Source of the DNA: an uncultured Desulfobacteraceae bacterium
GTDB taxonomy: Bacteria; Desulfobacterota; Desulfobacteria; Desulfobacterales; UBA5852
DNA length: 64,000 nucleotides
Reading direction: 5' to 3'
NCBI GenBank assembly: GCA_913060875.1
Contig: CAJXSL010000012.1
Location: forward strand, 62,001-126,000
Under the pieces are notes generated by a model. It was not told the DNA's origin, did not search any database, and worked only from the letters and a program-made list of their open reading frames with translations. The translations under genes and the position numbers were made by a program. Below, one piece after another: positions 604-6,694 of this stretch (position 1 is its first letter; each line of letters opens with the position of its first letter).

Positions 604-1992
604 TCAGGCGTCGATGACTTTATTGAGATCGATGCCGTATTTGCGCATCCGGTTCCATACCGTGACCCGGTTGATGCCCAGGAGGCGGGCGGCCTGGGTC
701 TGGTTGCCGCCGGTTTGGCGCAGGGCGTCGACCAGGGCCTGTTTTTCCGCCCCTGCTCCGCCCGGTCGGCCGCCCCCCTGGATGCTGAGGGTTGAAGGTG
801 TCTCCGCAGCCGGTGTCGGAAGGTGCTCGAGGTCGATCTTGCCCTTCTCCGCAATCACGAAGGCGTATTCCAGCGCACTTTTGAGTTCGCGCACGTTGCC
901 CGGCCAGGTGTAGTCCATCAGGTGCCGCAGGGCGCCGGACGTCAGGCCGGTGATGGCTTTTCCGGTGCGTCCCCTTAGCCGCTGGACAAAGCTGTTGACC
1001 AGCAGCGGGATGTCTTCCCGCCGTTCCCGCAGGGGGGGGATGCGTATGGGGATCACATTGATCCGGAAATACAAATCCTCACGAAACTGCTGCTGTTCGA
1101 TCAAGCTGACCAGGTTCTGGTGGGTGGCCGATATGATGCGGACATCCACATCCACGGAGCGGTGGTCGCCCACCCGTTCGATCTGCTTGTTTTCAAGCAC
1201 CCGCAGCAGCTTGACCTGGACCGACAGAGGGATATCACCGATTTCGTCCAGGAAGATCGACCCGCCGTCCGCGGCCTCAAAGCGTCCCGTACGATGGCGA
1301 TAGGCGCCTGTGAAGGCGCCCTTGATATGGCCGAAGAGTTCGCTTTCCAGCAGCGCGGCATTCAGGGCGGCGCAATTGAGCTGGACATAGGGGCCTTTTT
1401 TACGGTGTCCCCGTTCATGGATGGCCCGGGCTACCAACTCCTTGCCGGTGCCGCTTTCCCCTAAGATGATCACCGGCGCGTTGCTCTGGGCCGCCTTTTC
1501 CACCACCTGGAACACCTTGCGGATGGCGGGCGAGGTGCCGATGATGCCATGCTGCTCCCGATAGTCGTTCAACTGACGGGAGAGGAGTTCCACCTGCTGG
1601 TCCAACCGGTCGATTTCGCTGATGTCGGTGATGGTTTCCACGGCGCCGAGAACCGTACCGTCATCGTCTCGCAGGACCGATGCGTTTTTGAGGGCCGGCA
1701 GGCAGGTGCCGTCCTTGCGGACGATGCCGCAGCGGCAGCGGCGCATATCCGGGTGGTTGGGCAGGAACAGTTTGCACCATTCGCCGGGCCGGTTGTGGAG
1801 GGTCTGCTCACAGGCATCGCACTCCAAAAGGGTGCAGGACTTGCCGATGGCTTCGCCGGCACTGTAGCCGGTCAGGCGCTCGAAGGATTTGTTGACCATC
1901 AAAATGGTCCCTTCCGCGCTGATCAGCATCAGGCCGTCATTCATGGTGTTGATGATGCGCTTCCAGTAGCGGCTGATGTCTTCGCTCTTCAT
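604..1992 (-). CDS. Sigma-54-dependent transcriptional activator with Cys-rich PAS domain
   Basis: This is a 462-residue bacterial enhancer-binding protein. An N-terminal PAS domain (about 8-125) is followed by a short coiled linker, then the AAA+ domain with Walker A GESGTGKE (about 178), the sigma-54-contacting GAFTGA loop (about 224) and Walker B. A Fis-type helix-turn-helix lies at the C-terminus (about 420-455). The PAS domain carries seven cysteines in 45 residues (C53, C58, C61, C73, C86, C88, C97), which suggests a metal, Fe-S or thiol redox sensor. It is divergent from the redox operon starting near 2.2 kb, which has a -24/-12 promoter and phased upstream boxes. It is therefore the likely activator of that operon and perhaps of the flavodoxin gene to the left. 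Family assignment is secure; signal and targets are inferred. Confidence 0.93.
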   Translation of the reverse strand: MKSEDISRYWKRIINTMNDGLMLISAEGTILMVNKSFERLTGYSAGEAIGKSCTLLECDACEQTLHNRPGEWCKLFLPNHPDMRRCRCGIVRKDGTCLPALKNASVLRDDDGTVLGAVETITDISEIDRLDQQVELLSRQLNDYREQHGIIGTSPAIRKVFQVVEKAAQSNAPVIILGESGTGKELVARAIHERGHRKKGPYVQLNCAALNAALLESELFGHIKGAFTGAYRHRTGRFEAADGGSIFLDEIGDIPLSVQVKLLRVLENKQIERVGDHRSVDVDVRIISATHQNLVSLIEQQQFREDLYFRINVIPIRIPPLRERREDIPLLVNSFVQRLRGRTGKAITGLTSGALRHLMDYTWPGNVRELKSALEYAFVIAEKGKIDLEHLPTPAAETPSTLSIQGGGRPGGAGAEKQALVDALRQTGGNQTQAARLLGINRVTVWNRMRKYGIDLNKVIDA

Positions 1993-2420: not shown

Positions 2421-2469
2421 ATCGGACCGCATTTTCCTTGTGAGCGGGTTAAACGACGGGAGGATATAT

Positions 2470-3390
2470 ATGGATTTGAGCCGAAGAGGGTTTTTTAAAG
2501 TCATGGGGGCCACCGGGGCGGGCCTGGCGGCTTCAAACCGACCGGCCCGGGCCTGGCAGTCGCGGGCGCCGGAGGACCCCTACGGATGCCTGGTGGATCT
2601 GACCCGCTGCATCGGCTGCCGCAAATGCGAGCAGGCCTGCCAGGCGGTCAATGGCCTGCCGGAACCCGAAATGCCGTTTGATGATCTGACGGTTCTGGAC
2701 CGCAAGCGCCGGCCGGATGAAAAGAGCTTCACAGTGGTCAATCGCTACTACTCCGGCAAGATCGACGAGCGCGACCAGCTGATCCCCACCTTTGTCAAGA
2801 TCCAGTGCATGCACTGCCAGGATCCGGCCTGTGCCTCGGCCTGCATCGTGGGTGCCTTGACGAAAAAAGAAAACGGTGCCGTGGCCTACGACGCCAGCAA
2901 GTGTATCGGGTGCCGTTACTGCATGGTGGCCTGCCCCTTCGAGATCCCGGCCTATGAATATCACGATCCGATAACGCCCCGGGTGATGAAGTGCACCTTC
3001 TGCTACGAGCGGGTCGCCGAGGAGGGCAAGCTGCCTGGTTGCGCCCAGATCTGTCCGGTGGAGGCCATCACCTTCGGCAAACGGTCCACTCTGCTGGAAG
3101 TCGGCCACAAGCGCATCAAAGACAACCCCGGGCGTTACATCGATCATGTTTATGGTGAACATGAAGTGGGTGGCACCAGCTGGATGTATATTTCAGATCA
3201 GCCCTTCGAGAACCTCGGGTTCATCCAGGTGCCGGAAAAGCCCCTGCCTCAGTTGGCCGAAACCATCCAGCATTCCCTCTTCAGCTACCTCTGGTCCCCC
3301 ATCGTCCTTTTCGGCATGTTGAGCGGCGTCATGTGGGGGTTCCGGAACAAAGGCGACCGTGACATCGACCATGAAGGAGAGAATTCATGA
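2470..3390 (+). CDS. HybA-like periplasmic ferredoxin subunit with Tat signal and C-terminal anchor
   Basis: This is a 306-residue electron-transfer subunit. The start at 2470 has a GGGAGGA ribosome binding site; an ATG 30 nt upstream in the same frame has none. The N-terminus is a twin-arginine signal ([15 protein letters not shown]). Four cysteine groups follow (C-x2-C-x2-C-x3-C types near [35 protein letters not shown], and CTFC with GCAQIC), enough for four [4Fe-4S] clusters as in HybA/DmsB proteins. A hydrophobic segment near the C-terminus ([17 protein letters not shown]) would anchor it in the inner membrane. It overlaps the NrfD-like gene by 4 nt. It likely passes electrons between the quinone-interacting membrane subunit and the multihaem cytochrome downstream. 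Confidence 0.9.
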
Positions 3391-4592
3391 GCCATTCCTC
3401 AAGCCCGATACGGGCCAAGTTCTGGACACCCGGCGTGGTCGTGCTGGCCTTCCTGATGGCCGCCGGGGCCGTGACCATCGTTGCCCGCTATATCGGCGGC
3501 ATCGGCTATGTTTCCAATTTAACCACGGCACGCCCCTGGGGATTGTGGATCGGCGTGGATGTGGCTTCCGGTGTGGCCCTGGCGGCCGGCGGCTTCACCA
3601 CCGCCTTTCTGGCCCACATCGTCAGCCGCCACTACTATGAACCCGTGGTGCGGCCGGCCCTGCTGACCGCCATGCTGGGGTACACTTTCGTTGTCCTGGG
3701 GCTGCTGGTGGACATCGGCCGCTCCTGGGCCATCTGGAAGCCCATGGTGTTCTGGAACCCGAACTCGGTGTTGTTCGAGGTGGCCATGTGCGTCATGTTT
3801 TACCTCAACGTGCTCTACCTGGAGTTCGTGCCCATCGTGGTGGAGCAGTACAAGGGACGGGTCAATCTGCCCGGACCCCTGGCCGCGCTCAACGGTCCGG
3901 CCGAGGGGCTGCTGAAAATCGCCGACCTGATTACCGGCAAACTGATGTGGATATTCATTATCCTCGGGGTGGTGCTCTCCTGCATGCACCAGTCCAGTCT
4001 GGGCTCCCTGATGTTGATTGCCCCGACCAAATTGCATCCCCTCTGGTACACGCCGATCTTGCCGCTGCTTTTTCTGACCTCGGCCATTGCGGTGGGCTAT
4101 CCCATGGTGGTGTTCGAAACCACGCTGGTGACATCCTCCCTCAAACTGGATTCCGAGATGGACATCCTGGCGCCCCTGACCCGTTTTACCGTATTTTTGC
4201 TCGGGCTCTACCTGGCCCTGAAAATTGGCGACTTGGGGGTGCGCGGCACCTACGTCTATCTGCTCGACGGCACGGCCCAGACCAACGCCTTTCTGGCGGA
4301 GATCATCCTGGGGGTGATCGTGCCCTGGGTCATGCTCGTGCTGCCCAGGGTGCGCCAGTCCCGACGCGGCCTTTTTATCGCCAGCAGCCTGATCGTGGGC
4401 GGTGTGCTCTTGAATCGCGTTAATGTCTTCGTGGTGGGTTACCGTCCGCCCATCAGCGAGGCCAACTACGCGCCGGCCTTCGGCGAAATCCTGGTTACCG
4501 TCGGGCTCATCGCGGGCCTGATGTTCCTATACCGTTTTCTGGTGACCTATCTGCCGGTGTTGAACCGACCGAAACAGGAGGTGTCGGCATGA
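3387..4592 (+). CDS. NrfD/HybB-type integral membrane subunit
   Basis: This 401-residue protein has about ten hydrophobic segments and the family pattern of HybB/NrfD quinone-interacting subunits ([20 protein letters not shown] near residue 45-65, and a conserved [17 protein letters not shown]-like region). These proteins exchange electrons and sometimes protons between menaquinone and a periplasmic ferredoxin subunit. Its ATG overlaps the previous gene (ATGA), and its stop overlaps the start of the cytochrome gene, so the three are almost certainly translationally coupled into one complex. Direction of electron flow cannot be read from the sequence. Confidence 0.9.
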
Positions 4593-6694
4593 TCAACAAG
4601 TCGTCTATCGTTTTATGTTTAATGCTCCTGGTGGGAATCAACGGCGGCCTGGTCGCCCTCCCGCCGGGCAGTCCCGGAAGTGTTGCGGCCTATGCCGCAG
4701 CGGCCCAGGACAAGCCTGCGCCGGAGCCGGAGGCCAAGGCCTGGACCGCCCCCGACCAGGAAGCCGCCCTGGCGCGCGCCGCCGAGACGGTGCCCTTCGT
4801 CGAGGCCGTGATGGACGAGTGCAAGCTTTGCCGTCAGATGCGGCTGCGTGAAACGGGTTTGAGCACCAAGGACATCACGCACAGCTACTTCGTCCTCAAC
4901 AGCCCTATCATCAACAAGGTCGAGGACCACTACGGGCCGGTGCGCTTCATGCACAGCAAGCATGCCGCGCAAATCCAGGATTGCGCCATGTGCCACCATT
5001 ACCGTCCCCTGGATGCCGACGCCAAGGAAACCACCCGTTGCTCGGCCTGCCACCAGGAAGCCTTCCGCCCGGAGCACCCCGAACGCATCGGTCTGAAGGC
5101 CGCCTATCATCAGCAGTGCATGGAATGCCATCGGGACATGAACCAGGGACCGGTGGACTGCATCGGCTGCCACAACAAGAACGTGCCCGACCACAAGGAC
5201 AAGGTCCAGCTGGCCGCCAATCCGACGCCGTTCCAGGTGACGGCCGAGTGCCTGCGCTGCCACGAGGCGGCCGGCCAGGATATGCTCAAAACCGCCCATT
5301 GGCTATTGAAAGGCCCGTCCCCCTACACGTTGGGCCACCGAAAGGAGGTTGAGATCGGCAAAAGCACCATTGCCACCAACAACTTCTGAATGAGCATCGC
5401 CAGCAACGAGGCTCGTTGCACCAGTTGTCACGTCGGCTATGGATGGAAAGACGAAACTTTTGACCACACGGATATGACCAAGATCGATTGCCTGGTGTGT
5501 CATGACACCACCGGCACCTACAAAAAAAACCCGACAGCGGCAGGCATGCCCGATCCCAAAGTGGATCTGGTAAAGGTGGCTAAAAACGTGGGGCCCACCT
5601 CCCGGCGCTCCTGCGGCGAATGTCACTTCAACGGCGGCGGCGGCGAGGCGGTCAAGCACGCCGATCTCTCCCGCCAGTTGCTGACGCCGGACCGCAATTG
5701 CGACGTTCACATGGGTGGTTACGATTTTCAGTGCACCGAGTGCCATCGCACCCGCAATCACAAGATCGCCGGACGCAGCTCTTCCGTGGCTGTGGTGGAG
5801 GGCAGTTTTTCCTGCGAAAAATGCCACACCAGCAGCCCCCACCACGGGGATGATCTGCTGGATCATCACCTGAACAAACACAGTCAGACCATCGCCTGCA
5901 ATACCTGCCACTCACCGGTCTATGCCAAGTGCAAGCCCACCAAGGTCTCCTGGGACTGGTCCAAGGCCGGCGACAAGGAGCGCAAACCCAAGAAAGATAA
6001 ATACGGCATGAAGGACTACCACTGGAAAAAGGGTGAGTTTCGGTGGAAAGAGTCTGCCAAGCCCGTCTACACCTGGGACAGCGGCTTTACGAAGCGCGTG
6101 CTGATTGGAGACAAGGTGGATTGGCGGTCGGGGCCGGTCAACATCTCGGAGCCCGTCGGTTCCATCAACGATCCCAACTCCAAGATCGCGCCTTTCAAGA
6201 TCATGGCGGGGGTCCAGGCCGTGGATGCCGAACACGACTACCTCCTCGTCCCCCATCTCTTCCCCCGCGACAAGGAGGATAAGACCGCCTACTGGAAAAA
6301 CCTTGACTGGCAGAAGTCATTCGCCGACGGGATGAAGGCCGCCGGCCTGAAATACAGCGGCAAATACGAGTGGACCTCTTCGCAGATGTACTGGCGGGTG
6401 GAGCACGAAGTCATGCCCGCCCAATCGGCCCTCTCCTGTGTCCAGTGCCACGCCAGCCTGCAATCCGAGCGCACCTGCGACCGCTGCCACCAGGACAGCC
6501 GTGAGGTGGACTTCAAGAAGATTGCCCACAAGGGGACCGACTTCAGCTACATGGCCTCCCGGGGGCGTGATGTCAGCGATCTGATCGGTACGACGGACTA
6601 TATCGACTTCAAGGCCCTGGGCTACAAGGGCGATCCCATTATTCACGGCGGCCGTTTCAAGAAGCTGCCCATGGGGTATAAAGCTAAAAAATAA
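4589..6694 (+). CDS. Multihaem cytochrome c selenoprotein, octahaem tetrathionate reductase-like (in-frame TGA read as Sec267)
   Basis: Two ORFs (4589-5389 and 5390-6694) lie in the same frame, separated by a single TGA. Read through, they give 701 residues with a signal peptide and 13 CXXCH motifs. The N-terminal part (about 85-220) has four CXXCH (CAMCH, CSACH, CMECH, CIGCH) in a class III cytochrome-like pattern with upstream histidines. The rest, starting at CLRCH, resembles the octahaem tetrathionate reductase (OTR) family, including N-N-F-X-M-S-I and CTSCHVGYGW around the TGA. As I remember the family, a Cys usually occupies position X, so TGA would encode selenocysteine in its place. 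A SECIS-like hairpin follows at 5403-5419. The second half alone would start at an ATG with no ribosome binding site or signal peptide, which argues against two genes. The protein is probably periplasmic or exported, and may reduce a sulfur or nitrogen oxyanion; the substrate is unknown. Confidence 0.85.
5387..5419 (+). promoter_or_regulatory. In-frame TGA (Sec codon) and SECIS-like hairpin
   Basis: TGA at 5387-5389 is followed at 5403-5409 and 5413-5419 by GCAACGA and TCGTTGC, a perfect 7-bp stem with loop GGC (5410-5412). The loop starts 20 nt after the TGA and begins with G, as expected of bacterial SECIS elements (small G-containing apical loop roughly 16-37 nt after UGA). The stem lies inside the coding sequence for SNEARC, just before the CTSCH haem motif. 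Confidence 0.8.

Follow-up and report, generated by a model that had tools for sequence, protein, structure and literature searches.

A hairpin 3' of an in-frame UGA is very probably the bacterial SECIS element of a multihaem cytochrome gene in an uncultured Desulfobacteraceae bacterium

A 17-nt hairpin inside the coding sequence of a multihaem cytochrome gene, in a bacterium of sulfate-reducer type, is very probably a bacterial SECIS (bSECIS) element, a reading to which we assign a probability of about 95%. The gene lies in a 64,000-nt stretch of contig CAJXSL010000012.1 (here called the window), and from sequence comparison we infer SelB-dependent insertion of selenocysteine (Sec) at the UGA upstream of the hairpin (Table 1). 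The comparison lends support to a selenoprotein family that is otherwise listed, in the papers that we found, only as a GenBank annotation.

Table 1. Coordinates of the cytochrome gene, its putative recoding signals and its likely operon partners (window positions)
Feature	Position	Strand	Remarks
HmcB-like ferredoxin subunit	2440..3390	+	likely operon partner, 5' of the cytochrome gene
NrfD/HmcC-like membrane subunit	3387..4592	+	4-nt overlap with the cytochrome gene; likely operon partner
Predicted selenoprotein gene	4589..6694	+	signal peptide, four-CxxCH HmcA/c3-like domain, octahaem OTR-like domain; 701 aa, 13 CxxCH, one in-frame UGA
Putative Sec codon UGA, residue 267	5387..5389	+	aligned with Cys64 of Shewanella OTR (1SP3); TGC/TGT in Cys homologues
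Spacer, 13 nt	5390..5402	+	sequence variable, length fixed in all type-A homologues
Putative bSECIS hairpin, type A	5403..5419	+	stem 5403-5409 with 5413-5419, loop GGC 5410-5412
Loop G-[G/U]	5410..5411	+	probable SelB contact; second base would force Pro to Ala or Ser; consensus in PMC13188914

With the UGA read as a residue, the frame is continuous and the translation is one 701-aa protein, which corrects a gene model of two products of 266 and 434 residues. Its C-terminal part belongs to TIGR04315 (tetrathionate reductase family octahaem cytochrome), with a score of 494.1 bits against a cut-off of 375 for a match that spans the UGA; the N-terminal part is HmcA/c3-like, and eight of the CxxCH motifs lie 3' of the UGA. 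The protein also matches the octahaem tetrathionate reductase (OTR) of Shewanella (PDB 1SP3; E 7e-117), and the alignment places Sec on the residue corresponding to Cys64. A literature search on Cys64 of OTR found nothing usable. Lys356 of the cytochrome aligns with Lys153 of 1SP3, which we take to be the unusual ligand of the active-site haem, so Sec267 probably sits near the catalytic haem and may have a catalytic role there. Given the HmcB-like and NrfD/HmcC-like genes upstream, the cytochrome probably serves as the periplasmic subunit of a redox complex in the membrane. Divergent to these three genes is an open reading frame (604-1992, minus strand) that by eye resembles the gene of a sigma-54-dependent regulator with PAS and AAA domains and that may control them. 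The region gave no hit in a plasmid search.

We searched 395 genomes of the phylum, 389 genomes of the order and named genomes, and gathered 138 distinct homologues. The codon at the UGA site was TGA in 72 of them, TGC or TGT in 65 and ACT in one; the Thr encoded by this last gene (L082) indicates that neither Sec nor Cys is absolutely required at the site. The UGA could instead be a true stop, followed by a restart at the ATG at 5390 that would yield two proteins. That ATG directly follows the TGA in the window, and the downstream reading frame alone scores 443.9 bits to TIGR04315. We regard a restart as very unlikely, however: ATG follows the UGA in a minority of homologues, with ATC or ATT often in its place, and the interrupting codon is always TGA, never TAA or TAG, among the matches listed. 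The second product would also have no signal peptide, which is needed for periplasmic haem attachment.

The first-pass annotation, made from this sequence alone, had described a perfect 7-bp stem whose loop begins with G and lies 20 nt from the UGA, and all of this proved exact: GCAACGA pairs with TCGTTGC around GGC. The same bases can be drawn as GCAACG-AGGCU-CGUUGC, with a 5-nt loop. The hairpin does encode S-N-E-A-R-C, as had been noted, but it overlaps the haem site rather than standing just before it, TGC at 5417-5419 being the first Cys of the CTSCH motif. In the bSECIS model (PMC13188914), a loop of 3 to 9 nt tops an upper stem of 4 to 16 bp, a G occupies one of the first two loop positions and is usually followed by G or U, the UGA-to-loop distance is 16 to 37 nt, and the energy is at or below -7.5 kcal/mol. 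Here the loop is 3 nt, the stem is 7 bp, the loop G is followed by G or U, the spacing is 20 nt (24 nt in a second hairpin type, described below), and the energy is -7.5 to -9.0 kcal/mol.

The hairpin was further said to be uncommon by chance at this precise place. It is uncommon, but in a single sequence it is only mildly improbable (about 0.5 to 1%) and not compelling; comparison with homologues takes it far beyond chance. A bSECIS rule that demands 7 bp or more in the stem is passed by 0.46% of synonymous re-encodings, at about 1% of all window positions, at 22 of the 1,829 TGA trinucleotides in the window and at 15 of 681 codon positions of the cytochrome gene, and the 64-kb window holds 12 perfect 7-3-7 hairpins. 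An Rfam scan of the window found nothing at the gathering threshold, a result that says little about bSECIS elements.

A 44-nt mRNA segment that runs from the UGA shows, when folded, no excess stability (z about -0.5), and it prefers a competing, slightly better hairpin just 3' of the UGA (AAUGAGC with GCUCGUU). It is highly improbable that this minimum-free-energy structure is the functional fold. It is broken in relatives, with 76.9% of cells paired and one pair lost in 30 of 32 sequences, and RNAalifold on those sequences returns exactly the pairs of the reported hairpin instead. It would also overlap the mRNA channel of the ribosome, in which the bases just 3' of a decoded UGA lie. When the first 8 to 13 nt 3' of the UGA are omitted, the reported hairpin is the best fold (-9.0 kcal/mol, the value with flanks; the bare 17-mer has -7.5). 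We propose that, once the UGA occupies the A site of the ribosome, roughly the first twelve bases after it would be inside the mRNA channel, where the competing 5' pairing would melt. This would leave the reported hairpin, which spans 14 to 30 nt 3' of the UGA, free to fold, and SelB carrying Sec-tRNA(Sec) would bind the GG-containing loop. Selenocysteine would thus be inserted at residue 267, and translation would go on through the remaining 434 residues, with eight of the 13 haem sites.

A search for UGA homologues without any comparable hairpin found none (0 of 72), which supports the SECIS reading. When G-U pairs were allowed, 72 of 72 UGA genes versus 2 of 65 Cys genes had a stem of 7 bp or more in one of two registers (loop at 20 or 24 nt); the registers themselves were derived from the data that were counted. 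The two Cys genes look like relics. A general bSECIS rule, independent of the two registers, gave 7 to 9 Watson-Crick pairs in 67 of 68 distinct UGA sequences and 7 pairs with one G-U allowed in the remaining one, versus mostly 2 to 4 in Cys genes. On a tree with eight independent Sec/Cys contrasts, the hairpin went with Sec in 7.4 on average, the rest being ties and none reversed (median sign-test p of 0.016).

Codon usage bears on a different reading, in which the palindrome arises from the codons chosen for the conserved SNEARC beside the haem site and has no function as RNA. The first-pass annotation had itself pointed to constraint at the protein level, and the peptide is indeed conserved and overlaps a haem Cys; with a chance of about 0.5%, a single sequence would leave room for such an origin. 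As an explanation it fails in the comparison, and we consider it extremely improbable. Among 38 genes with the window's hairpin type (type A), 100 columns of conserved residues have a synonymous choice, and only five are codon-invariant, namely the five of the hairpin. Cys genes have no such column, and those with SNE.RC vary freely there. By enumeration, only 2 of 1,152 SNEARC encodings give a full Watson-Crick stem; the two differ in an unpaired loop base, and one alone is used in every SNEARC Sec gene examined. The peptide itself also differs between Sec and Cys genes. A pseudogene or a sequencing error at the TGA is almost out of the question, common as premature stops in single genes are in draft genomes, since the 72 UGA-bearing homologues are spread over many genera, some lie on complete chromosomes (that of Desulfosarcina widdelii, for example), and the downstream frame is intact in them.

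Across the 389 genomes of the order, the exact 17-mer was found 70 times, always in this cytochrome gene; 69 copies lie 13 nt after an in-frame UGA and one after TGT. The 17-mer as a general SECIS common to other selenoprotein genes is thereby ruled out. In the window's genome, allowing up to two mismatches, it is found only in this gene and in a TIGR04315 paralogue (L017; G000:C8) that has a UGA and the identical 17-mer. A further TIGR04315 paralogue in that genome (L062; G000:C16) has Cys and a quite different motif (NNFCISANRMEDKSC).

UGA homologues carry one of two unrelated hairpins. Type A (GCAACGA-GGC-UCGUUGC) has its loop 20 nt from the UGA and type B (CUGGUGC-AGGU-GCACCAG) 24 nt from it; type B is found mostly in genes that encode SNWCRCTSCH. 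Both occur in both deep subfamilies of the tree. One genome (G134) has type A in one cytochrome subfamily and type B in the other (L016, L060), and its recoding system presumably accepts both. The type-B loop is AGGU or AGUU, and type-B pairing beats all slid controls. One type-B pair changes from C-G to U-A, a compensated change, in five sequences, which form one clade and so may reflect a single event; another becomes G-U in two sequences.

The type-A stem shows zero variation among 32 distinct sequences, hence no covariation, and its loop is GGC in 31 of these and GUC in one. Compensatory third-base changes, which had been suggested as a check, are impossible in the type-A register because no third codon base in the stem is paired with another third base; its partner is always a first or second one. 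Type-A Sec genes examined had neither AGT, AAT and TGT, synonyms with which G-U pairs would preserve the stem, nor GAA, with which the loop would retain a G. The identical 17-mer stands between unrelated flanks in two cytochrome subfamilies that are about 40% identical, and codon identity at their shared residues is 47% outside the hairpin versus 100% inside it. It is conceivable, if doubtful, that the type-A element is recognized partly by its sequence, beyond shape alone. If so, SelB may contact stem bases, or very short conversion tracts may have spread the element between paralogues.

The RNA also appears to have shaped the protein. At one position within the hairpin, most Cys homologues (54 of 65) have Pro, where Sec homologues carry Ala, Ser or Cys and never Pro. 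In the type-A register, a Pro codon (CCT) would turn the loop into GCC, whereas Ala (GCT) gives GGC and Ser (TCT, in L129) gives GUC, and the latter two fit the published G-[G/U] rule for bSECIS loops (PMC13188914). In the type-B register, no encoding that contains Pro forms the stem, and Cys stands in for Pro. These patterns indicate that the strict conservation of the hairpin has altered the protein itself, with Pro giving way to Ala, Ser or Cys so as to fit the RNA, and they make this a clear natural case of an RNA signal inside a gene dictating amino acids.

Some Cys genes that seemingly descended from Sec genes still carry decaying hairpins. Among those keeping SNEAR, the hairpin is intact in one (L106) and partly decayed in three (L098, L103 and L163), and all four are apparent fossil SECIS elements left by Sec-to-Cys reversion. 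Remnant SECIS structures in such revertants have been described for FdhA and HesB-like proteins (PMC1794560). The four genes likewise have Cys with an intact or decaying hairpin, here of type A, but they belong to another protein family and form a graded series of decay.

The idea of Sec in the TIGR04315 family is not new: a 2026 review lists selenoproteins of this family by GenBank annotation only (WP_331457571.1; PMC13188914). The cytochrome described here scores above the family cut-off across the UGA, and other members have Cys at the site. Since the review gives no Sec position, the likeness holds at the level of the family; in the window's copy, an HmcA/c3-like four-haem domain is joined on by fusion, and HmcB/HmcC-like subunits are encoded alongside. 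Shewanella OTR has a homologous octahaem domain, in which Cys64 corresponds to Sec267 and Lys153 to Lys356, but it has Cys instead of Sec and is without the N-terminal cytochrome domain. No description of SECIS elements of the TIGR04315 family was found in the literature searched. As in the type case of bSECIS elements, the formate dehydrogenase genes of Escherichia coli, an in-frame UGA is followed just downstream by a coding-region hairpin with a short G-[G/U] loop. Here, by contrast, one gene alone carries a 17-nt sequence that is all but invariant between genera, and two unrelated hairpin types serve one protein family.

The window's genome encodes components of the machinery for Sec insertion: a tRNA-Sec (75.6 bits), SelB and SelA. 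Among its other selenoprotein genes, we sampled formate-dehydrogenase-type genes with one UGA each, and a 7-bp hairpin, its loop at 19 nt, follows the UGA in two of them. In a further gene (L197), a UGA near position 346, in the motif VGG*HIGDCHYLYGNH, precedes a 6-bp hairpin with the loop UGUAC. This gene seems to encode one more selenoprotein of that genome, associated with a hydrogenase.
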